A DNA stretch of 64,000 bases from Glycomyces tenuis DSM 44171 (GTDB lineage Bacteria; Actinomycetota; Actinomycetes; Mycobacteriales; Micromonosporaceae). Shown here piece after piece: positions 7,397 to 43,168 of this stretch (the first letter of the stretch is position 1; every line of letters begins with the position of its first letter). The translations under genes were made by a program, and so were the position numbers. The notes under the pieces are model-generated. The model was not told the DNA's origin and did not search any database. It saw only the letters and a list, made by a program, of their open reading frames with translations. The stretch covers positions 1-64,000 of the forward strand of contig NZ_ATYW01000009.1 in NCBI RefSeq assembly GCF_000427885.1, read 5' to 3'.

Positions 7397-8320
7397 TCAC
7401 TTGTCGGTGGCGGCTATCAGCTCTCTGGCGAGCTGTCGGTAGGCGCGGGCGCCGGAGGAGGCCGGGGCCCACGTGGTGATCGGCTCGCCGGCGACGGTGG
7501 TCTCGGGGAACCGCACGGTGCGGGTGATGACGGTGGAGAAGACCTTGTCGCCGAAGGCCTCGACGACCCGCTGGAGCACCTGCCTGGAGTGGGTGGTGCG
7601 CGAGTCGTACATGGTGGCGAGGATGCCGTCGAGCTCGAGGTCGTAGTTCAGCCGCTCGCGGACCTTGTCGACGGTGTCGAGCAGCAGCGCCACACCGCGC
7701 AGGGAGAAGAACTCGCATTCGAGCGGCACGAGGACCGAGTGCGCGGCGGTGAGCGCGTTGACCGTCAAGAGGCCGAGCGAGGGCTGGCAGTCGATGAGCA
7801 CGAAGTCGAAGTCGGGGATGACCGGCCGCAGCACCCGAGCGAGGGTCTGCTCGCGCGCGACCTCGTTGACCAGCTGGATCTCGGCCGCGGACAGGTCGAT
7901 GTTGGCCGGGAGGAGGCGCAGGCCCGCCACGTTCGTCTTCATCATGACGTCGTCGATGTCGACGTCCTCTTGCATCAGGAGGTTGTAGACGGTGAGGTCG
8001 AGCGTGTGGGGGTTGGTGCCGAAGCCGACGGACAGCGCGCCCTGCGGGTCGAAGTCGACCAGGAGGACCTTGCGGCCGTACTCGGCCAGCGCGGCGCCGA
8101 GGTTGATCGTCGTGGTGGTCTTTCCCACACCGCCCTTCTGGTTGGCCATGGCGATGACGCGGGCGGGACCGTGGCGCTCCAGGGGCTGGGGCTGGGGGAT
8201 GTCGCGTTTGCCCGTGTAGGTCTCGGGGTCGGGCGAGGTGAAGTCGCCGTCCGAGTCAGCGGGCGGCACTTGCGCGGAGCGCAGGGCCTCCCACTTGTCA
8301 TTGCTGTCCACACTGCTCAT
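7397..8320 (-). CDS. ParA-family ATPase (Soj-like), chromosome partition associated
   Basis: A 307-residue deviant Walker ATPase. The KGGVGKTTT motif lies at residues 62-70, the switch is DFDPQGALSVGFG, and IDCQPSLGLLTVNAL is the third nucleotide motif. ParA/Soj ATPases bind DNA non-specifically in the ATP state and move cargo along the nucleoid. No parB is adjacent. Instead the gene heads the scpA-scpB operon, an arrangement conserved in Actinomycetota. The family member in this position is separate from the parAB pair near oriC, so the role is probably in condensin loading or segregation, by inference. The first 50 residues are a disordered extension. Confidence 0.92.
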   Translation of the reverse strand: MSSVDSNDKWEALRSAQVPPADSDGDFTSPDPETYTGKRDIPQPQPLERHGPARVIAMANQKGGVGKTTTTINLGAALAEYGRKVLLVDFDPQGALSVGFGTNPHTLDLTVYNLLMQEDVDIDDVMMKTNVAGLRLLPANIDLSAAEIQLVNEVAREQTLARVLRPVIPDFDFVLIDCQPSLGLLTVNALTAAHSVLVPLECEFFSLRGVALLLDTVDKVRERLNYDLELDGILATMYDSRTTHSRQVLQRVVEAFGDKVFSTVITRTVRFPETTVAGEPITTWAPASSGARAYRQLARELIAATDK

Positions 8321-8493
8321 TTCTTCACGCCTCCGGGTGCAAGGACGGCACCGGGTGCCGGGCGTCTCACCGTTTGCCTGTTACTGCGACTGTACGTCAG
8401 TGTATCGATGGTGTCGACGGCTTGGGAGACTCCGAGGCACCCGGCGTGAGATCGCCCGCTGTCGGCTCGGGTTCGGCCTGGGGACAAGCGGAT
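8321..8493. other. Intergenic region upstream of parA
   Basis: This 173-nt spacer separates the ald stop from the parA start, both on the minus strand. It should hold the parA-scp promoter and the ald terminator. I see no strong hairpin with a U-run and no confident -10/-35 pair. Confidence 0.3.
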
Positions 8494-9612
8494 TCAGCTC
8501 GCGAGGACGCGCTCCACCGATGTCACCGGAAGGTGGTGGGTGAGCGCGACCGGTTCGTTGGTGACCTCGCCGGCGTGGGTGTTCAGGCCGCGGGCGAGCG
8601 CGGGGTCGGAGGCCAGCGCCTCCCGCCAGCCGAGGTCGGCCAGCTTCATGACATAGGGGAGCGTGGCGTTGGTCAGCGCGTAGGTGGAGGTGTTCGGGAC
8701 CGCGCCGGGCATGTTGGCGACGCAGTAGAAGAGCTTGCCGCCGTGGGTGAAGGTCGGCTCGTCGTGGGTGGTGGGCCTCGAGTGGGCGAAGCAGCCGCCC
8801 TGGTCGATGGCGATGTCGACGAGGACCGCGCCGTCCTTCATCTCGGCGAGGACGTCGTCGTCGACGACGGTGGGGGCCTTGGCTCCCGGGACGAGGACGG
8901 CGCCGATGACGAGGTCGGCCTCGCGGCAGGCGCGCTTGATCTCGAAGCGGTTGGAGACGACGGTGCGCAGGCGGCCCTGGTAGAGGTCGTCGGCGACGTG
9001 GAGCTTGTCGTTGTTGAGGTCGAACAGTTCGACGTCGGCGTGCATGCCGACGGCGATGGCGGCGGCGTTCATGCCGGACACGCCGGCGCCGATGATGACG
9101 ACTCGCGCGGGGCGCGTTCCCGGCACGCCGCCCAGGAGGATGCCGCGGCCGCCTTCGGGCCGCTGGAGGTGGTAGGCGCCGGCCTGGACGGCGAGGCGCC
9201 CGGCGACCTCGCTCATGGGGGCGAGGAGCGGCAGGCGCCCGTCGGCGGTCTGGACGGTCTCGTAGGCGATGGCGGTGACGCGGTGCTCCAGGAGCGCGTC
9301 GGTGCATTCGGCGCTGGCGGCGAGGTGGAGGTAGGTGAACAGGGTCTGGCCGGGCCGCATGCGGTGGTACTCGCCCTTGACGGGCTCTTTGACCTTGAGG
9401 ACGAGATCGGCCGCGGCCCAGGTCGCGTCGGCGTCGGGGAGGATGAGCGCCCCGGCTTCGCGGAAGTCGTCGTCGGTGATGGCCGAACCGAGGCCGGCCC
9501 CGGACTCGACGGCGACGTCGTGGCCGGCGGCCACCAGTTCGTGGACGCCGGCTGGGGTGAGGGCGACGCGGTACTCGTTGTTCTTGATCTCGCGGGGGAC
9601 GGCGACTTTCAC
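8494..9612 (-). CDS. ald: L-alanine dehydrogenase
   Basis: A 372-residue NAD-dependent alanine dehydrogenase that interconverts L-alanine and pyruvate plus ammonia in the cytoplasm. The N terminus MKVAVPREIKNNEYRVALTP is typical of the family. Other features are a FTYLHLAAS block with the active-site His, the Rossmann motif GAGVSGMNAA, and the conserved IDQGGC segment. I place the start at GTG 9612: GGAAGGAA lies 8 nt upstream, and the length then equals the usual 371-372 residues. An ATG 12 codons upstream is less likely. The start region carries an AACGTTTCG-type motif (see 9628-9803). Confidence 0.96.
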   Translation of the reverse strand: MKVAVPREIKNNEYRVALTPAGVHELVAAGHDVAVESGAGLGSAITDDDFREAGALILPDADATWAAADLVLKVKEPVKGEYHRMRPGQTLFTYLHLAASAECTDALLEHRVTAIAYETVQTADGRLPLLAPMSEVAGRLAVQAGAYHLQRPEGGRGILLGGVPGTRPARVVIIGAGVSGMNAAAIAVGMHADVELFDLNNDKLHVADDLYQGRLRTVVSNRFEIKRACREADLVIGAVLVPGAKAPTVVDDDVLAEMKDGAVLVDIAIDQGGCFAHSRPTTHDEPTFTHGGKLFYCVANMPGAVPNTSTYALTNATLPYVMKLADLGWREALASDPALARGLNTHAGEVTNEPVALTHHLPVTSVERVLAS

Positions 9613-14484: not shown

Positions 14485-16713
14485 TCATCCACGGGATTCC
14501 ACACTAACACTTTCCCCGTCGTTCTCCTCGTCGACCCACGAGGGCGCGTCGACGATCATCGCCGAGTACTGGCCGTCCTTGACGTGGGCCCTCGCCAGCA
14601 CCCGGTGGCTCATGATGATCGCGAGCGGCACCATGACCGCCAGCGCCGAGCCCAGGCTCATGAGGCCCTTGCCCAGGAGGAGGCCGGCGATGGCGGAGCC
14701 GACGACGGCCGCGGAGAACGCGGCCCGCAGCGGCGGGTAGAGCCCGAAGGCGCGCCGCAGGCCCCCGCCGGGGCGCAGCAGCACCATCCAGCAGTACAGG
14801 CCCGCCATGACGGCCAGGACGCTCAGCGGCGAGGTGAAGACGGCGACGACATTCGAGCCGACCCCGGCGCCGATGACACCGCGCGTCTCACCCATGAGGT
14901 CGGCCAGGAACGCGCCGAGCGCGCCCCGCTCGGCGACGGGCCGCTGGTAGTCGATCCACGACAGGCCCAGCAGGACCACCGCGCCGGCCAGGCCGGACCA
15001 GAGCAGGCGGGCGAAGGTGAACCAGCCGCCGGTCGCCAGGGCGGCGGCCAGGCAGGTGCCGACGGTGAGGGCGACGGCGGCGGGCACGGAGTCGCCGAGG
15101 AAGCCCGCGGAGACGACCATGACGCCGAGGCAGCCGATGCCGGCCATGACCGGGGACTGGAAGCGGCGCGGCAGCCGCGAGGCCGCCACGGCGGCGAGCA
15201 GCCACAGCGAGGCGATGAACATGCCGGTGGCGACCGGGCCGAGCTCGCCGGAGGCCGAGTCGGCGACGGTGTAGTCGCCCAAGAGCGTCCCCAGTGGAGC
15301 GGAAGCGTGGATGAGCATGGCCGTCATGGTGACGAGCAGGCCGAACACCGAGACGGCGACCATGAGCGCGGCCGGGGTGTGGCGCCGGGGCAGGATGATC
15401 GCGGCCACGGCGCACACGGCGCTGACGGCCAGCGCGGTGGCCGGGCCGACGAGGTCGGGTCGCGGGGCGTTCCACCAGCCGAAGAAGTCGGCGAGGATCC
15501 CGGCGGCGACGAACATGGCGCACACGAGGGCGACGACGATGTTGGCGCGCATGAGCCACAGCGGCGGCGGTTTGACGCCCGGCTCCCCGGCCCGGCGCAG
15601 CAGGTGCAGCAGCGGCCAGGCCACGAAGGTCAGCGCGAAGAACAGCAGCACTTGCAGCCATTGCGTGTTGGGTGCGGCGTCGGCGGCGGCGATGAGCCTG
15701 GTGTCGGTGTCGTCGAAGACCGCCTGGCGCTCCTCGTACGGCAGCGTGTCGGAGACGGCGCCCGCGGCGGCGCCGGTGACGTTCTCGGGCAGGGGCGCGT
15801 CGAGCAGCGTCAGGATCGTCGCGGTCAGGTCGGTGAGGTGGAGATAGCCGGGGCGTTCGGCGGACAGGTCGAGGAGGTTGTGGCCGTCGTCGCCGCCGAA
15901 GTTCGCGATCGCGGCGAGCAGCCGGTTGGGCTCGGTGGTCTGGCTCATGCCGGCGACCATGAGGGCGGTGTCGCCCTCGCGGGCGTCCATGAGCTCGCCG
16001 ACGGTCGCGTCGAGGGCGGTCAGCGCGGCGGCGCGCTGGCTCTCCTCGATCGGCAGGACGCCGCCGTCGACGACGGTGAGCGGGCATTCGGCGAGCAGCT
16101 CGGTCAGGGCCTCGCCTTCGGGCAGGTCGGTCTCGTAGTCGGAGACGCGGCCGACGGAGTTGGCGGTGGCGTAGGCCGCGCCGGGGCCGACCGCGGTGGC
16201 GCACGAGGTGCCGGCGGCGAGCATGCCGAGCTCGGTGCCCTGGTCGAGTTCGCGGTTGAGCTCGACGATGTCGGTGAGGCCGTCGACGGTGGCGCCGGCG
16301 TCCTCGGCGGTGATCTGCTCGGAGCCGGCGGGGCCGCAGCTGGGGGTGTCGCCGAAGGCGGTGCTGGTGGCGGGCGAGCCCGCCGAGAGGGTGAGCCAGC
16401 CGTCGAGCGTGCAGGTGAAGTTGCGGGCCGAGTTGGTGTTGAGCTCGGCCAGGGAGCCGTCCGCGGCCAGGGCGCTCAGGTTCGGGGTGGTCTCGGGGTC
16501 GATGTCGGTCCAGGTGAGGCCGCCGACGCCGAGGAAGGTCACCGATTCGACGGCGTCGGGGACGCGCTCGTCGGTCGGTTCCGGCAGGATCTGCCAGGCG
16601 GCGAAGGCGGCGAGGACGGCGACGACCGCCCATGCCGCCACGGTGGCGCGGTGGTGGGCCGCGGATCTGAGGAACCGGCGGACGAAGCGTCCGGGTTCGA
16701 ACTTCTCCAGCAC
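14485..16713 (-). CDS. Polytopic membrane protein with an extracytoplasmic alkaline-phosphatase-fold domain
   Basis: A 742-residue protein. One membrane helix (about 22-42) is followed by a 320-residue extracytoplasmic domain and then about ten further helices (about 370-715). The domain has features of the alkaline phosphatase/sulfatase superfamily as found in actinobacterial membrane proteins: VTFLGVGGLTWTDIDPETTPNLSALA at the start, and a late ...GYLHLTDLTATILTLL segment like the metal-binding end of the fold. I do not see an unambiguous Thr/Ser nucleophile in a canonical context; N-F-T-C near residue 110 is a candidate. It lies 7 nt after the glycosyltransferase stop, so it is the last gene of the envelope operon before pyrG. 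A likely role is trimming or transferring a phospho-group on the lipid-linked glycan made by the upstream genes (inference). Confidence 0.7.
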   Translation of the reverse strand: MLEKFEPGRFVRRFLRSAAHHRATVAAWAVVAVLAAFAAWQILPEPTDERVPDAVESVTFLGVGGLTWTDIDPETTPNLSALAADGSLAELNTNSARNFTCTLDGWLTLSAGSPATSTAFGDTPSCGPAGSEQITAEDAGATVDGLTDIVELNRELDQGTELGMLAAGTSCATAVGPGAAYATANSVGRVSDYETDLPEGEALTELLAECPLTVVDGGVLPIEESQRAAALTALDATVGELMDAREGDTALMVAGMSQTTEPNRLLAAIANFGGDDGHNLLDLSAERPGYLHLTDLTATILTLLDAPLPENVTGAAAGAVSDTLPYEERQAVFDDTDTRLIAAADAAPNTQWLQVLLFFALTFVAWPLLHLLRRAGEPGVKPPPLWLMRANIVVALVCAMFVAAGILADFFGWWNAPRPDLVGPATALAVSAVCAVAAIILPRRHTPAALMVAVSVFGLLVTMTAMLIHASAPLGTLLGDYTVADSASGELGPVATGMFIASLWLLAAVAASRLPRRFQSPVMAGIGCLGVMVVSAGFLGDSVPAAVALTVGTCLAAALATGGWFTFARLLWSGLAGAVVLLGLSWIDYQRPVAERGALGAFLADLMGETRGVIGAGVGSNVVAVFTSPLSVLAVMAGLYCWMVLLRPGGGLRRAFGLYPPLRAAFSAAVVGSAIAGLLLGKGLMSLGSALAVMVPLAIIMSHRVLARAHVKDGQYSAMIVDAPSWVDEENDGESVSVESRG

Positions 16714-16720
16714 AGGTCGG

Positions 16721-17899
16721 CTATCTTCCGGTCAGTTCGAGGTAGAGCGCGTCGAGCGCGTCGAGCATCTGCGCTTCGTCGGGCCAGGTCGCGGCCTTGG
16801 CGAGGCCCGCTTCGCGGAGCGAGGCGAGGCGGGCGGGGTCGGCCAGGAGCGAGCGGACGGCATCGTCGAAGGCGTCCGCGTCGCCGGTCTCGGTCAGGAC
16901 GGCCGCGTCGCCGACCAGTTCGGGGATGCCGCCGGTGCGGGTGGCGACGAGCGGGACGCCGGCCTGGAGGACCTCCTGGGCGAACAGCTGGCGGGCCTCC
17001 CAGCGGCTGGTGACCACGGCGAGGTCGGCGGCGGCGAGCAGGTTGCCGACGTCGGTGCGGTGGCCGAGCAGGCGCACATCGGCCCCCGAGGCGTCGATGA
17101 GTCCCTGGAGGCGCCCGCGCTCGGGGCCGTCGCCGGCAATCGCGACCACCGGGGCTCCACTGAAGGTGCGAGCGCTGCTCGCTCCGGTTTGGGGAGCGGC
17201 GTCGCTTGCGACGCCGGCGGGCGGGGCGACGGGCGCGGGCCTCGAGGCGCCCCAGCGGCTCGCGACGCCGATGAGCATGTCGTAGTCCTTCTGGACGTGC
17301 AGTCGCCCAACCGAGAGGACGAGGGGGCGATCGCCGATGCCGAGCTCGGCGCGGATCGCGTCGGCGTCGCCGGTGGGGAGGCGGGGCGGGGCGGCGACGG
17401 GCGCGAGCCTGGCGTCGGCCGCGCCGAGGGCGACGAGGTGGTCGTGCAGGTCCGAGGAGGCGGCGAGGGCGACGTCGACACCGCGGGCCAGGCGCTTCTC
17501 GATCTGGTCGGCGAGCCTGCGCTTGAACCCCGAGGTGATGAGCTGGTTGTGCCAGGTGGTGACGAGCGCGGCGTGCCTGGGGCGGGCGGCCATCGCAGTG
17601 ATCCCGGCGGTCAGGCCGTGGGCGTGGACGACGTCGACGCCGCGGCCGGTGACGCCGCGCAGGGCGCCGCGGGCGGCCCAGACGGCCAGCGGCAGCTCGG
17701 GCGAGGGCTTGGCGGTGATCGGAGCGGGCGCGAAGCGGGCGCCTCTGGAGCGGAAACCGAAACGCTCCTCGGTCTCGGGAGGCCCGACGACGAGGACGGC
17801 ATCGCCGCGTTCGACCAGGCCGGACGCCACGGAGGCGACATGGGTGCCGATGCCGCCGGTCGAGGGTCCCAGCACCAGTGCGATGCGTCGGTGGCTCAC
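16721..17899 (-). CDS. Glycosyltransferase family 1/4 (GT-B fold)
   Basis: A 392-residue GT-B enzyme. The N-terminal motif is GPSTGGIGTHV, with VVHAHG and TTWHN in the acceptor domain; the C-terminal domain has SVGRLHVQKDYDMLI, AGDGP and the EARQLFAQEVLQAG...TGGIPEL region. This is the E-x7-E-type nucleotide-sugar site of retaining GT4 enzymes. The GTG start overlaps the flippase stop as GTGA, with GGAGAAG upstream. An insert of about 25 Ala/Pro/Ser-rich residues (about 217-245) separates SRWGA from VVAIAGDGP. Its DNA contains the perfect palindrome GGCGTCGC-TT-GCGACGCC, related to the dispersed repeat. The enzyme presumably extends the lipid-linked sugar begun by the PNPT two genes upstream. 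Confidence 0.88.
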   Translation of the reverse strand: MSHRRIALVLGPSTGGIGTHVASVASGLVERGDAVLVVGPPETEERFGFRSRGARFAPAPITAKPSPELPLAVWAARGALRGVTGRGVDVVHAHGLTAGITAMAARPRHAALVTTWHNQLITSGFKRRLADQIEKRLARGVDVALAASSDLHDHLVALGAADARLAPVAAPPRLPTGDADAIRAELGIGDRPLVLSVGRLHVQKDYDMLIGVASRWGASRPAPVAPPAGVASDAAPQTGASSARTFSGAPVVAIAGDGPERGRLQGLIDASGADVRLLGHRTDVGNLLAAADLAVVTSRWEARQLFAQEVLQAGVPLVATRTGGIPELVGDAAVLTETGDADAFDDAVRSLLADPARLASLREAGLAKAATWPDEAQMLDALDALYLELTGR

Positions 17900-19524
17900 T
17901 GGTCTTCTCCGCTCTGCTCTGCTTCTTCGGTCGCTCGTATTGTGCCAGCCCTGCGCCGCACCGCACGAAGTACGGCGTGGTGGTCGACGAGCGCCGCCAC
18001 CCCAACGTAGACGAGGGCGGCGACCGCTCCGGCCGCGACGCCTTCGGCGACGGCGAGGGCGATCGAGCCCGCGTGGCCCCACCACTCGATGAGCGCCCGC
18101 GCGGCGGCGACGGCGGCGGCCGTCGCGCACAGCGCGGCGGCGAGCGCCCTGCCGAGGCCCTTGAGGCTCGCGGCGCCGGTGTTCCTGGCGACGGCGGCCG
18201 TGAGCGCGATCCCGGTGACGGTCATGCCGATCGACCAGCTGATGGCCAGGGCGAGCGTCCGGTGCTCGACGTCCATGGTGCTCGAGAGGACGATCGCGCT
18301 GACCGCGGCCGCGGCCCATCCCGCCACGGTGGCCGCCGCGGCGGCGTAGGCCCGGTCGACGGCGTACAGGCCCCGTGAGTAGACGGCGAACATCGAGTAG
18401 CCGAACAGGCCGAACGCGAAGCCGGTCAGGGTCGCGCTGATCTCGGCCTCGGGGGCGCCGTGCTGGACCTTCCCGAGCACTGTGGCGATCGGTTCGGCCA
18501 CGCCGGCGAGCGCGGTCACGCCGAGGCCGGAGAGCACGAGCACGACCCGCCCGGCGGCGGCGATGGTGCGCTGGTAGGCGCGGGTGTCGCCGACGGCGTG
18601 CGCCTCGGACAGGTTCGGGTAGGCGGCCGTGGCGAACGGCACGGCGAGGACCGCCCACGGCAGCAGGAAGAACGTCTGGGCGACGGTGAAGACGACCACC
18701 GGCCCGGGACCGGCGTCGTTGGCGAAGCGCAGCAGCACGAACTGGCACAGCTGCTGGGCGCCGAGGGTGATGATGCCCGCGATCGCGAGGGCCTTGACGC
18801 TGGCGTTGAGCTCGGCGTCGAACTTCCACGTCGGCCGCAGGCGCAGCCCGAGGCGGCTCAGCGGGATGAACAGGCATCCGGCCAGGACGGCCACGCCGAG
18901 CGTGGTGCCCAGGGCGAGGAGCAGCAGGTCGTTCTGGGAGACCCGCTCGGCCTCGCCCTCGTTGCCGGTGAGGACGCCGTAGGCGACGTACACGCCGATC
19001 ATGGTGACGCTGGACAGCAGCGGCGCCAGGGCGGGCCAGGCGAACCTGCGATGGGCCTGGAGGACGCCGGTGAGGACGACCGCGATGCCGTACATCGGCA
19101 GCTGCGGTGCGAAGAGCACGAGCATCTCGGTGCCGGTGTCGATCGTGGCGGGAGTGACGTTGGCGCCGGCGACGAGTTCGACCAGCGGCCGGGCGAAGAG
19201 CGCGACCGCGGCGGCGATCGGGATGAGCGCGCTCAGCGCCCAGGTCAGCAGCGCCGAGGCGATGCGGTCGACCTGCTCGGTGTCGCGGCGGGCGAGCGGG
19301 GCCGACAGCAGCGGCACCGCCAGTGCCGCCAGCGCGCCGCCGGCGACGAGCTCGAAGATGAGGTTGGGGATGGCGTTGGCGCTCTGGTAGGCGGTGCCGA
19401 GCGTGGCGTACCCGACAGCCCAGGTGAACACCAGCATCCGGCCGAATCCGGCCAGGCGGGAGCCTATGGTGATCGCACCGATGAGGGTGGCGGCACGACC
19501 GACTTCGCGTCGGGTGTCCGTCAC
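17896..19524 (-). CDS. MurJ/MviN-type lipid-linked oligosaccharide flippase
   Basis: A 542-residue MOP-superfamily transporter with about 14 predicted helices. MurJ-like segments are LIGAITIGSRLAGFGRMLVFTWAVG, TAYQSANAIPNLIFELVAGGALAALAVPL and the LPWAVLAVPFATAAYPNLS block. MurJ flips lipid II across the membrane. The main actinobacterial MurJ (MviN) is larger and lies elsewhere near the origin, so this is a second, shorter paralogue, likely for another lipid-linked glycan. GTGA overlaps join it to the PNPT upstream and the glycosyltransferase downstream, so synthesis, flipping and extension genes are made from one message. Confidence 0.88.
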   Translation of the reverse strand: MTDTRREVGRAATLIGAITIGSRLAGFGRMLVFTWAVGYATLGTAYQSANAIPNLIFELVAGGALAALAVPLLSAPLARRDTEQVDRIASALLTWALSALIPIAAAVALFARPLVELVAGANVTPATIDTGTEMLVLFAPQLPMYGIAVVLTGVLQAHRRFAWPALAPLLSSVTMIGVYVAYGVLTGNEGEAERVSQNDLLLLALGTTLGVAVLAGCLFIPLSRLGLRLRPTWKFDAELNASVKALAIAGIITLGAQQLCQFVLLRFANDAGPGPVVVFTVAQTFFLLPWAVLAVPFATAAYPNLSEAHAVGDTRAYQRTIAAAGRVVLVLSGLGVTALAGVAEPIATVLGKVQHGAPEAEISATLTGFAFGLFGYSMFAVYSRGLYAVDRAYAAAAATVAGWAAAAVSAIVLSSTMDVEHRTLALAISWSIGMTVTGIALTAAVARNTGAASLKGLGRALAAALCATAAAVAAARALIEWWGHAGSIALAVAEGVAAGAVAALVYVGVAALVDHHAVLRAVRRRAGTIRATEEAEQSGEDQ

Positions 19525-20405
19525 GCCTTGTTCCGGCCCATTTCGTCCAGTTCACGCAGCACCGGGGTATCGGCGATGACCTGGGTGAAGCTGACGCGCT
19601 CGCTCGCGGCGATGAGCGCGGCGATGCCCACGAGCGCGACGTGGCGTCCCACCGGTCCGGTGCGGGCTATGTAGGACAGGCCGAGCAGGGCGCCGACGGC
19701 GTTCGCGCCGCAGTCGCCGAGCATGGTCTTGCCCTCGAGGTCGTCGCCCATCGCGGCGGCCGCGGCCGCCGACACCGCCAGGGCGGTGTTCGCGCCGCTG
19801 GAGGCCGTGCTGCGGGCCTTGGGGCCCGCGGGGCGCGAGAGCGGAGCGGCGACCGCGGAGGCCACCTTGAGCGCCCGGCCGGGCCGCAGGTCGAACAGGT
19901 TGAGGAGGTTGGCGGCTCCGGCGATGACGCCGCCGCCGACGCCGATGTTCCACAGCCGGGCCCATCGGCCCTCGGGGCGGCGGTCGGAGACGGTGTCGAC
20001 GAGCGCGGACGAGGCCAGCCCGGTCGCGGAGATGCCGACGATCTTCACCAGACCGGCCGAGACGCGGCCCTTGAGCAGGGCCGAGAGGTGACCTTTGAAG
20101 CCTTTGGCCTTCTCGCCCTTGGTGTCCGCCATGTCGTCGTAGAGTCCGAGCGCGCCGGTGGCGAGCCCGGTGGCGGCCGCGGCGGCCGCGTAGGCCGGGG
20201 AGGCGGCGCCGGCGACGGCGGCGGCGGTCGCGCCGATGGTGACGCCCGGTCCTTCGGCCAGGCTGACCGTATCGCCTCGGTGGTTGACGCGTTCGAGGTC
20301 CTTCGACCATTTGGAACGGCGGACGGCGCTGATCGCGGCGATGGTGCCGCCGGCGGCCAGGCCGCCGAGGAACGCCCGTCCAGCTGCGCGGGTTAGCTGG
20401 CTCAT
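19521..20405 (-). CDS. Polyprenyl-phosphate sugar-1-phosphate transferase-like protein (MraY/WecA family)
   Basis: A 294-residue membrane enzyme of the PNPT family. Motifs are GLYDDMAD (the Asp pair that binds Mg2+), NLLNLFDLRPGRALK (the N-x3-D motif) and MLGDCGANAVGALLG (the late GD.GAN loop). Such enzymes transfer a sugar-phosphate from a UDP-sugar to undecaprenyl or decaprenyl phosphate, the committed step in building a lipid-linked glycan. It is shorter than WecA or MraY (about 320-360) and seems to lack one or two N-terminal helices. I place the start at ATG 20405, 11 nt after the MctB stop, rather than ATG 20444, which overlaps it. It is GTGA-coupled to the flippase. Confidence 0.8.
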   Translation of the reverse strand: MSQLTRAAGRAFLGGLAAGGTIAAISAVRRSKWSKDLERVNHRGDTVSLAEGPGVTIGATAAAVAGAASPAYAAAAAATGLATGALGLYDDMADTKGEKAKGFKGHLSALLKGRVSAGLVKIVGISATGLASSALVDTVSDRRPEGRWARLWNIGVGGGVIAGAANLLNLFDLRPGRALKVASAVAAPLSRPAGPKARSTASSGANTALAVSAAAAAAMGDDLEGKTMLGDCGANAVGALLGLSYIARTGPVGRHVALVGIAALIAASERVSFTQVIADTPVLRELDEMGRNKA

Positions 20406-20415
20406 GGGCGGAATC

Positions 20416-21348
20416 CTAGGCCGCTCCGGGAAGCTGGCCTTCATTGCCCTCCCCGGTGCCCAGGTGGTACACGCTGCCGTCGGTGATGAGCTCGACCAAG
20501 GCGATGACGGCGGCGATCTGCCCCTGGGCGGTGTTGACGTTGTCGACCGTGGAGACGGGGACCTCGACGTCCTCGCCGCGCAGCGCCAGGACCGGGTTGC
20601 CTTCGCCGGCGGAGACCGAGGCGGCGTAGACGGTCGGGTCGTCGACGGCGAAGGCGGTGGCGACGCTGACGACCCCGGTGTTGCGCTCGTCGGCGTCGGA
20701 GTCGGTGGCGACCGCGCCGCCCACGAGGATGACCCCGGTGGCGTCGCCGGTCGGCTCGGATTCGACGGTGAGCGTCCCGAGCTCGGTGAGGCCGGTGGTG
20801 ACGGTGGTGATGTCGGCGGGGGTGATCTCGACGGGCGCGCCCTCGAAGCTGCCGGTGGTGACGGCGGCGAGGACGGCGCTCATGGCGGCGACGCCGTCGT
20901 AGGTCACGGGCGCCTCGATGGTGTCGGGGGTGACGCCGTCGACGAGGCCGGCGAGCTGGTCGTTGTTGGCCGGGTCGAGGAAGTCGTCGAGCAGGGAGAT
21001 GCGTCCGGCGCTGGCGGCGCCGGAGTAGCCGAGCATCTCCTCGACCTCGTCGACGACCTCGGTCTCGGCGCCGGGCATGGCCACGAGGAGGATGTTGTGG
21101 CCGGCGAGCCTGCCGTCGAGGTAGGAGGGGGCGATCTCGGAGGCGAAGGACTGGTCGTCCTCGAGTTCCTCCTCCAGCGCGGCGATCTCGTCGCGCATCG
21201 CGTTGTTGCTGTCCCGCAGGCTCTGGCTGGTGGCCTCGAGCGCCTCCATGGCCGGCCCGTTGAGGGCGGCGGTGCCGAGGATGAGGCCGATGGTGAGGGC
21301 CAGGAAGACCGCGGTGAGCGAGACGAGGTGGTAGCGGAAGTTGATCAC
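20416..21348 (-). CDS. steB: SteB/MctB-type envelope channel protein (copper transporter family)
   Basis: A 310-residue protein starting with MINFRYHLVSLTAVFLALTIGLILGTAAL, a single membrane anchor followed by a coiled coil (about 35-70) and a periplasmic beta-rich domain. This is the signature of the Rv1698/MctB family, annotated as a copper-efflux outer-membrane channel in mycobacteria and as SteB, the partner of SteA in septal wall assembly, in Corynebacterium. The GTG start overlaps the steA stop (GTGA), so both are made together. In an actinomycete without a mycolate outer membrane the wall-assembly role is the more plausible (inference). Confidence 0.88.
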   Translation of the reverse strand: MINFRYHLVSLTAVFLALTIGLILGTAALNGPAMEALEATSQSLRDSNNAMRDEIAALEEELEDDQSFASEIAPSYLDGRLAGHNILLVAMPGAETEVVDEVEEMLGYSGAASAGRISLLDDFLDPANNDQLAGLVDGVTPDTIEAPVTYDGVAAMSAVLAAVTTGSFEGAPVEITPADITTVTTGLTELGTLTVESEPTGDATGVILVGGAVATDSDADERNTGVVSVATAFAVDDPTVYAASVSAGEGNPVLALRGEDVEVPVSTVDNVNTAQGQIAAVIALVELITDGSVYHLGTGEGNEGQLPGAA

Positions 21349-22541
21349 GAGAAGAGCCTTTGGATCTGGAAGAGCAGGCCGTCCCACCAGTCGGCGATGA
21401 CGTCGATGAAGGAGCGCCCGACGGTGGAGATGGCGACGGCGGTCGCCATGGCCGCGAGAGCGGAGACGATGAGCAGCAGCAGCGCGGAGATCGACATGTC
21501 CTGGCGGTAGAGCCGCGAGACGCCCTTGGCGTCGACGAGCTTGCCGCCGACGCGCAGCCGCGTGAGGAACGTGGAGGCCATGCCGCCGCGGCCCTTGTCG
21601 AGGAACTCGACCATGGTGACGTGGGTGCCCACGGCGCAGATCAGCGAGGCGCCCTTCTCGTCGGCCATGAGCATGGCGATGTCCTCGGAGGTGGCGGCGG
21701 CCGGGAACGGGATGGCCGGGACGCCGAGCTTGTCCATGCGCTCCATGCCCGGCGCGCGCCCGTCGGCGTAGGCGTGGACGACGATCTCGGCGCCGCACCG
21801 CAGGGCGTCGTCGGAGACCGAGTCCATGTCGCCGACGATCATGTCGGGCGTGTAGCCGGCCTCCAGGAGCGCATCGGCGCCGCCGTCGACGCCGACCAGG
21901 ACCGGCTTGAACTCGCGGATGTAGGGCCGGAGGACGTCGATGTCCTCCTTGTAGTTGTATCCGCGGATGACGATGAGCGCGTGGCGGCCGTTGAAGTCGG
22001 TCTTGACGTCGGGCACGCCGACGCCGTCGAGCAGGAGGTCGCGTTCGCGCTTGAGGTACTCCATGGTGTTGGCGGCGAACGCCTCCAACTGGACGGACAG
22101 GCCCTCGCGGGCGGCCTCCATGTCGGCGGCGACGCTCTTCTCGGTCTGGAGTTTGCCCGCACCGATCTCGTTGCCGCCGAGGAGGATTCGTTCACCCTCC
22201 ACGGTGACGGTCTTGCCTTCGCGGACCTTGTCGAAGATCTCGTCGCCGACGTCGTCGATGAGGACGACCCCGCCCTTGATGAGGACCTCCGGGCCGAGGT
22301 TCGGGTAGCGCCCGGAGACGGACTTGGCGGCGTTGACGACGGCGGCCACGCCGGTGGCGACGAGGGCGTCGGCGGCGACGCGGTCGAGATCGACGTGGTC
22401 GATCACCGCGATGTCGCCGGGTTCGAGGCGGCCGCACAACCGCTTCGTCCGGCGGTCGAGTCGGGCAGTGCCGACCAGCCGGTCGTCCCCGGAGGGCGAC
22501 TCCGGGTTCCGGCCGGGCAAACGCAAGCTAGGTACACGCAT
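21345..22541 (-). CDS. steA: SteA, cytokinetic-ring / cell-wall associated protein
   Basis: A 398-residue protein with a thiamin-pyrophosphokinase-like domain. Distinct features are LCGRLEPGDIAVIDHVDLDRVAADALV near the N terminus, VGDMDSVSDDALRCGAE and SEDIAMLMADEKGASLI in the middle, and one C-terminal membrane helix (SALLLLIVSALAAMATAVAIS, about 350-370). SteA in Corynebacterium localises with the FtsZ ring and, with SteB, recruits a peptidoglycan hydrolase system. The kinase-like fold probably binds a nucleotide, but the catalytic role is not known. It heads the coupled envelope operon that continues to 14485. Upstream lie two copies of the dispersed repeat and no obvious promoter. Confidence 0.9.
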   Translation of the reverse strand: MRVPSLRLPGRNPESPSGDDRLVGTARLDRRTKRLCGRLEPGDIAVIDHVDLDRVAADALVATGVAAVVNAAKSVSGRYPNLGPEVLIKGGVVLIDDVGDEIFDKVREGKTVTVEGERILLGGNEIGAGKLQTEKSVAADMEAAREGLSVQLEAFAANTMEYLKRERDLLLDGVGVPDVKTDFNGRHALIVIRGYNYKEDIDVLRPYIREFKPVLVGVDGGADALLEAGYTPDMIVGDMDSVSDDALRCGAEIVVHAYADGRAPGMERMDKLGVPAIPFPAAATSEDIAMLMADEKGASLICAVGTHVTMVEFLDKGRGGMASTFLTRLRVGGKLVDAKGVSRLYRQDMSISALLLLIVSALAAMATAVAISTVGRSFIDVIADWWDGLLFQIQRLFS

Positions 22542-42220: not shown

Positions 42221-43168
42221 GTGCCGATCGCACCAGGACAACCCGCGTTGATCGCCGTGGCAGTCGCCACCCTGTGGGCCCAGCCTTCGGCCCCGGGTCC
42301 CGAAGACCGACTGGCGCTGGGCGTCCCGTCGGCCATCAGGGAATGGGTGGCCCGGCTCACCAGCGACGTCCGCGCCCACGGGCTCAAGGGCCGGGTGCGC
42401 ACCCAGTGCCTGCTGGGCACCGAGGTCGAGGTCATCCAGCTCGGGGACCGCTGGGCGGAAGTGGCGTGCCCGACGCAGGAGACGTCCGGGTGGGTCCCGA
42501 TCGACCAGCTGGTCAATCCCGCGGAGGACGACACGAAGGGCACCGAGCACCTCGTGAGCGCCACGGCCACGGCCATCCGCGACGAACCGGGCGGCGACGT
42601 CGCCATCCCCGGCGTGACCATGGGGACGCGGCTGCGCGTGGTCGGCCCCGGATACCGCGGATGGGTGCCGGTGGCGCTCCCCGGGCCGCAGCAGCCCGGC
42701 TGGGTGCCCCAGCGGGACCTCTCCCCCGAGCCGGTCGGCGCTGCCGAGGGCGAGCCGCCGGCCACCGGCATGGCCACGGCGGGCCTGGACGCGGTGAAGC
42801 TCGCGCAGCAGCTGCTGGAGATCCCCTACCTGCACGGCGGCATCAGCGCCTACGGGATCGACGCGCCCGGTCTGGTGTGGATCGTCTACCGCCGGCTCGG
42901 CATCGAGACGCCGCGGTTCAACGAGCGGCTCGTCGAGACCGGCGAGGCGATCGACTTCGACGACGTCCTGCCCGGCGACCTGCTGTTCCTCGAGCACGGA
43001 GGCGACCCGCGCATGCCGGCCATCGTGGCCGAGCGCACGCAGGCCGATCTCCCCGAGGTGATCTTCTCCTCGCCGGTCTACGGCAAGGTCGTGATCGAGT
43101 CGCTCAAGGACTCCGAGCTCGGTCAGATCACCGCTTGCCGACGTCTGCCGTCTCGGGCGTCGGCGTAG
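42221..43168 (+). CDS. NlpC/P60-fold protein lacking catalytic residues, with SH3-like domains
   Basis: A 315-residue protein with two SH3-like segments (about 45-165; DRWAEVACPTQETSGWVPIDQL and GPGYRGWVPVALPG...GWVPQRDL). A C-terminal NlpC/P60 domain (about 185-310) starts AGLDAVKLAQQLLEIPYLHGG. Active members have D-C-S-G-L, with Cys as the nucleophile; here the motif is D-A-P-G-L, so the Cys is Ala. The later His of H-V-(G/A)-I is also missing (RMPAIVAE). No signal peptide is seen. The protein is probably a cytoplasmic non-enzymatic binder of wall fragments or of a protein partner. GTG 42221 follows GGAGAG. Its 3' end overlaps the convergent terC end by 41 nt. A -10-like site 350 nt upstream suggests a long structured leader. 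Confidence 0.8.
   Translation: MPIAPGQPALIAVAVATLWAQPSAPGPEDRLALGVPSAIREWVARLTSDVRAHGLKGRVRTQCLLGTEVEVIQLGDRWAEVACPTQETSGWVPIDQLVNPAEDDTKGTEHLVSATATAIRDEPGGDVAIPGVTMGTRLRVVGPGYRGWVPVALPGPQQPGWVPQRDLSPEPVGAAEGEPPATGMATAGLDAVKLAQQLLEIPYLHGGISAYGIDAPGLVWIVYRRLGIETPRFNERLVETGEAIDFDDVLPGDLLFLEHGGDPRMPAIVAERTQADLPEVIFSSPVYGKVVIESLKDSELGQITACRRLPSRASA

Follow-up and report, generated by a model that had tools for sequence, protein, structure and literature searches.

In a 64,000-nucleotide stretch of the Glycomyces tenuis DSM 44171 genome (the window), six consecutive open reading frames (ORFs), each free of internal stops, occupy the minus strand from 14485 to 22541. They encode SteA and SteB (together SteAB), a protein with the fold of the polyprenyl-phosphate N-acetylhexosamine-1-phosphate transferases (PNPT), a second MurJ-type flippase (MurJ2), a glycosyltransferase (GT) and a membrane protein with an alkaline-phosphatase-like (AP-like) domain. 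We lean towards the view that the PNPT, MurJ2 and GT genes together serve the making of a lipid-linked glycan, and that this module is functionally coupled to SteAB. A first-pass annotation of this DNA had named six same-strand genes running from SteA to a phosphatase-fold protein, and both the ORFs and the family matches listed here bear this out:

21345-22541, minus strand: SteA, a putative cytokinetic ring protein of 398 aa with a TPK-like domain and a SteA-like C-terminal domain; matches NF040608 (526.5 bits, cut-off 150), PF12555 and PF04263
20416-21348, minus strand: SteB, also called MctB, 310 aa; PF11382 at 239.6 bits (cut-off 25.6); joined to SteA by a GTGA overlap
19521-20405, minus strand: PNPT-fold protein, 294 aa, of a distinct subfamily; its AlphaFold model matches the MraY/DPAGT1 fold
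17896-19524, minus strand: MurJ2, 542 aa; PF03023 at 162.6 bits (cut-off 27.4); forms a clade of its own
16721-17899, minus strand: GT4-family (GT-B) glycosyltransferase, 392 aa; PF13579, PF00534 and PF13692 above cut-off
14485-16713, minus strand: AP-like membrane protein, 742 aa; an alkaline-phosphatase-fold domain followed by long helices

The tie between SteA and the PNPT extends well beyond this organism. Profiling of co-occurrence across Actinomycetota, which the first-pass annotation had proposed, supports the linkage, with the reservation that our counts ignore shared ancestry. Among 148 genomes of the class, the PNPT was matched in 65 (at E <= 0.001) and SteA in 90, of which 87 scored above the family cut-off; 58 genomes have both, 7 have the PNPT only and 32 have SteA only. 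Of the 58, 54 have both genes on a single contig in the same orientation, with the PNPT downstream of SteA at a distance of 970-1367 bp that matches the length of SteB, and in the remaining four the two genes are on different contigs (this count uses all 90 SteA genomes and drops second pieces in four). A sample of the phylum, comprising 296 genomes and scored at the same PNPT threshold, has a PNPT match in 123 genomes, some of only 1.3-1.8 Mb, and SteA above its cut-off in 126. Of the 112 out-of-class genomes whose SteA exceeds the cut-off, 107 also have the PNPT. Among the 114 out-of-class PNPT genomes, SteA shares the contig and strand of the PNPT in 96 (no more than 12 kb away in 94), is on a different contig in 11 and is absent from 7, six of these last being weak or short PNPT matches. 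The out-of-class count omits weaker second PNPT matches in five genomes, SteA matches below cut-off and some second SteA pieces, merges two SteA pieces in genome G345, and takes SteA positions from matches that are incomplete at the weak end.

Gene content and order at related loci point the same way. Among 80 related loci, which are the best 80 of at least 571 relatives and so are biased to close ones, MurJ2 is present in 80, SteA and SteB in 78 each, the GT in 72 and the AP-like gene in 37; the five-gene core is found in 70 and all six genes in 37. Of the eight loci that lack the GT, four (L075, L080, L089 and L098) are short contigs, and L074 includes a stretch of N. The closest named relatives are other Glycomyces, with PNPT identities of 75-83% in four named genomes; a metagenome-assembled genome reaches 89%. 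In a hand-chosen set of 20 out-of-class loci, SteB and the PNPT are present in all, SteA in 18 (the stretches of the other two begin inside SteB), and MurJ2 and the AP-like gene in eight each. Gene order varies in this wider set: it reads SteA-SteB-MurJ2-GT-AP-PNPT in L222, L228 and L229, the PNPT precedes SteA in L241 (recN-PNPT-SteA-SteB), and MurJ2 is on the opposite strand in L227 and L230. Gene order thus varies while the set stays together, and the linkage survives rearrangement. Duplications also occur, with the AP-like gene doubled in tandem at L073 and on either side of the PNPT at L231, and with two GTs in a row at the Brevibacterium loci L104, L105 and L111.

The genes are also closely spaced, in most respects as first annotated: GTGA overlaps join SteA to SteB (21345-21348), the PNPT to MurJ2 (19521-19524) and MurJ2 to the GT (17896-17899), and 7 nt lie between the GT and the AP-like gene. 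The gap from SteB to the PNPT had been given as 11 nt and is 10 nt (20406-20415); an alternative upstream ATG at 20444 would make the PNPT overlap SteB. To compare junctions we looked in the 80 related loci for an in-frame start codon within -11 to +15 nt of the upstream stop, taking the start nearest to a 4-nt overlap, so that the resulting counts are best cases. Such a start is present at 71/80 PNPT-MurJ2, 59/72 MurJ2-GT and 37/37 GT-AP junctions, and at 39/77 SteA-SteB and 52/78 SteB-PNPT junctions. At the borders of the set, the counts are 16/76 for recN-SteA, 6/23 for GT-pyrG and 1/34 for AP-pyrG. The tight spacing within the six-gene set is more than chance.

By its predicted structure, the PNPT is an MraY/DPAGT1-fold protein. 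Its AlphaFold model (mean pLDDT 93.4) has MraY as its top Foldseek match (E 6.2e-4, probability 1.00), and in VIA it aligns with MraY 9zno over 267 residues (Z 24.5, rmsd 3.6) and with DPAGT1 at Z 21.8, unrelated rows running from Z 5.5 down. No Pfam model matched the window protein; PF00953 is found at E <= 1 in 17 of the 26 members of PNPT alignment A1 (best 5.4e-5), and the window protein is not among the 17. A sequence search of the PDB gave chance-level matches at most, comparison of the PNPT profile with a two-row MraY profile gave no significant match (probability 2.4%), and a scan of viral contigs with the PNPT alignment gave 43 pattern matches and no relatives. Aligned with the profile of 20 WecA-type proteins (local E 4.6e-4), D90-D91 correspond to the DD motif, D172 to the first Asp of DGxDG and D231 to GDxGS, a pairing that rests also on the fold because the profile probability is only 33%. 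The signature motifs of the subfamily are encoded as follows:

20133-20138, minus strand: codons of D90-D91, the DD motif, kept in 79/80 and 19/20 relatives, the remaining row of each set being gapped
19866-19910, minus strand: codons of N166-K180, NLxNLxDLRPGRAxK, in the place of the WecA-type DGxDGLA
19701-19724, minus strand: codons of M228-N235, MLGDxGAN, the counterpart of the GDxGS motif
19533-19559, minus strand: codons of L283-R291, LxxLDxxGR, the C-terminal signature of the subfamily

The four aspartates D90, D91, D172 and D231 are kept in 79/80 and in 19 or 20 of 20 relatives. N166, N169, P175, R177, K180, D287, G290 and R291 are kept in at least 79/80 and at least 19/20, and E269 in 79/80 and 18/20; the L230 row of this alignment was taken from the wrong region, so that the gaps in it are artefactual. 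MraY/WecA-type proteins as a rule carry an HHH motif, and the pattern HHH or HxHH is present in all 31 PF00953 loci checked, the organism's own MraY included. It is absent from the window PNPT and its aligned relatives, as is the second Asp of DGxDG, in place of which they have D-x-[R/A]-P-G-R (DLRPGRA in the window protein). The PNPT therefore shares with MraY, WecA and DPAGT1 the fold, the DD pair, the loop-C Asp and the GDxG Asp, but differs from them in these two motifs, in its C-terminal LDxxGR, in its length of 294 aa and, for the window protein, in having no Pfam match, and it is the combination of an MraY fold and catalytic aspartates with an absent HHH and a motif of its own that sets the subfamily apart. 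The replacement falls where PNPTs of known structure hold the nucleotide, and so a changed donor is possible.

The organism has one PF00953 protein, which reads as MraY and lies between murF-like and murD-like frames. At least two PF00953 matches are present in 62 of the 65 PNPT genomes of the class, the PNPT itself possibly being counted in some; the exceptions are the window genome, its family mate G095, and G076, which is 73% complete. We therefore rejected the idea that the PNPT is a general replacement for WecA.

The flippase is likewise set apart from its peptidoglycan counterpart. MurJ2 is one of two PF03023 proteins in the genome, and it shares with the lipid II flippase MurJ this family, sequence similarity to MurJ proteins of solved structure (best E 7.6e-14) and the paired arginines R23 and R29. 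It differs in scoring 159.8 bits against TIGR01695, under the cut-off of 235.55, and in falling in a separate clade: in a tree of 52 rows (21 of 81 MurJ2 rows and 31 others, chosen for high PF03023 score and including the organism's own MurJ1), MurJ2 separates from the other MurJ rows with support of 100/100, long branches being flagged. It also departs at positions invariant in the 31 other rows, namely N156 (Q in 18 of the 21 MurJ2 rows), R158 (H in 21), N171 and N172 (S in 21) and P375 (G in 21). Because both the PNPT and MurJ2 differ from the proteins of peptidoglycan synthesis, a glycan distinct from peptidoglycan, as had been suggested at the outset, is the better reading.

By its domains, with Glyco_trans_4_4 and Glycos_transf_1 above cut-off, the window GT is an ordinary GT4 enzyme, and its sequence does not reveal a donor or an acceptor. 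It has an in-frame insert of about 27 residues (residues 225-251; 17147-17227, minus strand) that is absent from nine relatives; the DNA of the insert can form hairpins, although its folding is not unusual against shuffled sequences (z -1.40), and the genome has a single copy of its core motif. Of the 20 out-of-class loci, 11 have a GT2 placed between SteB and the PNPT (L223, L224, L226, L227, L232-L237 and L240, on the other strand in L227); GT4 is found in four, both types in none and neither in five. In many out-of-class loci, then, a GT2 stands in for the GT4 of the class. The GT2 matches PF00535 in the six tested, and the closest NCBIfam models in the four tested are AglJ, GpgS and PpgS, all far below cut-off, which makes polyprenyl-phosphate or glycerate glycosyltransferases its closest models. 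A GT2 and a PNPT-like gene may lie beside clostridial SteAB as well.

The first-pass annotation had given the sixth protein a trimming role within a complete assembly line, and neither part of this claim held up. The AP-like protein has an N-terminal helix, an alkaline-phosphatase fold at residues of about 55-320 and then a series of long helices, presumably transmembrane, in a model of moderate confidence (mean pLDDT 76.6). Its domain aligns with the alkaline phosphatase superfamily at Z 17.5-19.9 among the 50 rows shown, with Z 19.9 to iPGM 1o98 over 216 residues and 19.3 to Xac NPP 7n1s. Enzymes of this superfamily are expected to have metal-binding His and Asp residues, but no His is conserved at 90% or more among 39 aligned rows of the AP-like protein, its conserved blocks lack the usual Asp-His ligands, and the long helices behind the domain are a further difference. 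Four cysteines (101, 126, 171 and 210) are conserved in 38 or 39 of the 39 rows. We thus rejected a phosphatase or trimming role; the protein, whose gene is present in 37/80 loci, is probably an optional, non-hydrolytic partner. The wider term was too strong, since the module has no polymerase or ligase and in 3/80 loci pyrG follows MurJ2 without a GT. These three loci (L056, L101 and L107) are from Cellulosimicrobium and Oerskovia, with pyrG directly after MurJ2; at L107, MurJ2 and pyrG share one ORF, the sole two-family ORF found when such fusions were sought.

How might such a module work? We infer the activities, the order of steps, the substrate, the flipping and the coupling to SteAB from the families involved. 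The PNPT would transfer a sugar-1-phosphate to polyprenyl phosphate, one more sugar would come from the GT (a GT4 in the window, a GT2 in many out-of-class loci), and MurJ2 would flip the lipid-linked saccharide or disaccharide. This resembles the MraY-MurG-MurJ sequence, in that the module would initiate, add one sugar and flip, but differs from it in having a GT4 or GT2 instead of MurG, in its association with SteAB and, putatively, in the saccharide made. SteA-SteB, in relatives a transmembrane regulator of septal peptidoglycan hydrolysis, would be coupled to these steps most simply if the SteA pocket sensed a nucleotide, a nucleotide-sugar or an intermediate of the pathway, as is suggested by the lasting company that SteA keeps with enzymes that should use nucleotide-sugars. 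Separation of the daughter cells would then wait for, or be tuned by, this glycan.

Published work on SteAB bears on this proposed coupling. Cell separation by SteAB of Corynebacterium and Mycobacterium is the subject of PMC6705760, and the window shares with these systems the adjacent SteA and SteB orthologues on the recN side. PMC12977500 describes SteAB as a regulator of the RipA hydrolase that binds and orients RipA, reports that Corynebacterium glutamicum SteA (CgSteA) is stabilised by GDP or UDP and has a pocket predicted to bind carbohydrate, finds binding tests of MtSteA inconclusive, proposes that SteAB is a signalling complex and notes that in Clostridia SteAB adjoins Spo0A; in the main text of that paper the words glycosyltransferase, MurJ and flippase are all absent. 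Because that paper makes SteAB a RipA regulator with a nucleotide-binding pocket, it may be glycan synthesis that acts on control of the hydrolase, as opposed to SteAB placing the glycan at the septum, as was first suggested. Elsewhere in the window, 42221-43168 on the plus strand encodes an NlpC/P60 protein that also has an SH3 domain; the genome as a whole has six NlpC/P60 matches.

The same elements admit a bolder formulation, which we regard as rather unlikely: an ancestral actinobacterial checkpoint in which SteA would read a nucleotide-sugar or by-product of a dedicated pathway and, via SteB, license septal hydrolysis. The pathway would consist of the new PNPT subfamily with its altered nucleotide site, interchangeable GT2 and GT4 enzymes and a MurJ-type flippase. 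If this were true, the sensor would have been retained in mycobacteria and corynebacteria and the pathway lost; that these groups lack the PNPT is judged from genomes of the sister family.

Several observations weigh against a coupled glycan module. With HHH and the second Asp of DGxDG missing, the PNPT may be inactive or may use another substrate. Neither SteAB nor the PNPT part needs the other everywhere, since SteA-only genomes (32 of the 90 with SteA in the class) and PNPT-only genomes (7 of 65) exist. In the other family of the window's order, all nine sampled genomes have SteA and none has the PNPT; there, in contrast to the window, pyrG follows SteB with no PNPT, MurJ2 or GT (L151 and L152). 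Among 12 loci inspected from the 32 SteA-only genomes, pyrG starts within about 150 bp of SteB in six (L151, L152 and L154-L157), and in L160 and L161 it is no more than about 1 kb from a partial match to SteB; about 3.8 kb separate SteB from pyrG in L153, L150 ends at a contig edge and SteB was not detected in L158. Locus L149 has lost MurJ2 and kept a GT (a 377-aa frame), and between SteB and that frame it retains a PNPT remnant (ORF 8302-9030) that still shows MLGDTGAN; G037 and G071 of the same genus have the PNPT. Conversely, four of the seven PNPT-only loci (L144-L147) read recN-PNPT-GT without SteA, SteB or MurJ2, and their PNPT signature is eroded, with K180 and the C-terminal LDxxGR lost; we call their family Streptomyces-like by inference, and four of its ten sampled genomes match the PNPT. 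MurJ2 was detected in only 8/20 out-of-class loci. Finally, a preprint (PMC12338722) has mycobacterial SteA (TapA/Rv1697) acting with MtrB signalling and reports that separation does not require MctB, which would speak for a different role of SteA in mycobacteria.

Some of these observations also fit a rival in which the glycan module has no functional tie with SteAB, the two being neighbours only because both sit in an old, slowly changing block between recN and pyrG. The set is embedded in housekeeping genes, with what we take, by homology to relatives, to be recN, nadK and tlyA upstream and pyrG downstream, and these four genes flank it inside and outside the class; such a conserved block by itself favours lasting neighbourhood. 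Within the same block, close starts are found at 49/69 tlyA-nadK and 27/68 nadK-recN junctions, so that tlyA-nadK is equally tight, and we know of no shared role for this pair. The SteA-only genomes of the class and the persistence of PNPT and GT without SteAB at the four Streptomyces-like loci fit this explanation too. Against it, the adjacency outlasts changed orders and strand flips (L227, L230 and L241), a PNPT start lies near the SteB stop far more often than a SteA start near that of recN (52/78 and 16/76), and 107/112 out-of-class SteA genomes keep the PNPT. We consider mere neighbourhood unlikely overall, and a functional link between the glycan module and SteAB the better account.

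A different use of the same proteins would be sensing. In this reading, which we think quite improbable, the PNPT would be a pseudoenzyme with polyprenyl phosphate or lipid II as its ligand, and together with SteAB and the degenerate AP-fold protein it would report the status of the lipid carrier to the hydrolase. The absent HHH and altered DGxDG of the PNPT, the loss of expected ligands in its AP-fold partner and the proposal in PMC12977500 that SteAB is a signalling complex are all in keeping with such a sensor, but the four acidic PNPT residues that would be expected to bind Mg and substrate hardly vary, and a GT4 or GT2, superfluous for a pure sensor, is present in 72/80 and 15/20 loci.

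Still less probable is a known wall-polymer pathway in disguise, of the teichoic, teichuronic or arabinogalactan-linker type. A PNPT and a GT are the usual start of wall-polymer linkers, and the window genome and G095 have no second PF00953 protein that could serve a linker. However, no polymerase, ABC exporter or tailoring genes lie between SteB and pyrG, the PNPT is found across the phylum even in the smallest genomes mentioned above, and nearly all PNPT genomes of the class have the two or more PF00953 matches already noted. Least probable of all, and rejected as the main reading, is a second MraY-MurG-MurJ set supplying peptidoglycan precursors at the septum: it would follow the same step logic with a MurJ2 that matches PF03023 and keeps R23 and R29, but the canonical MraY is present, the PNPT has no significant match to the two-row MraY profile, the GT is a GT4 and not MurG, and MurJ2 forms its own clade with its own conserved positions.

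Searches of the open-access PMC literature turned up no description of these genes as a set, in agreement with the first-pass annotation, which knew of no described product. The parts of the module are of known kinds; as far as we searched that literature, three things are undescribed: the subfamily to which the PNPT belongs, its association with SteAB throughout the phylum sample, and the exchange of GT2 and GT4. SteAB acts in the daughter-cell separation and antibiotic sensitivity of actinobacteria, and its neighbour is a PNPT that, by its fold, would be expected to consume nucleotide-sugars at the membrane, which makes the question of the SteA ligand directly testable. The PNPT itself is a distinct subfamily within a class of enzymes that is an antibiotic target. 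A lipid-linked saccharide in Micromonospora, Actinoplanes, Kribbella and their relatives would be a new component of the envelope and, if the link to SteAB is true, a surface sugar would be tied to the separation of daughter cells.

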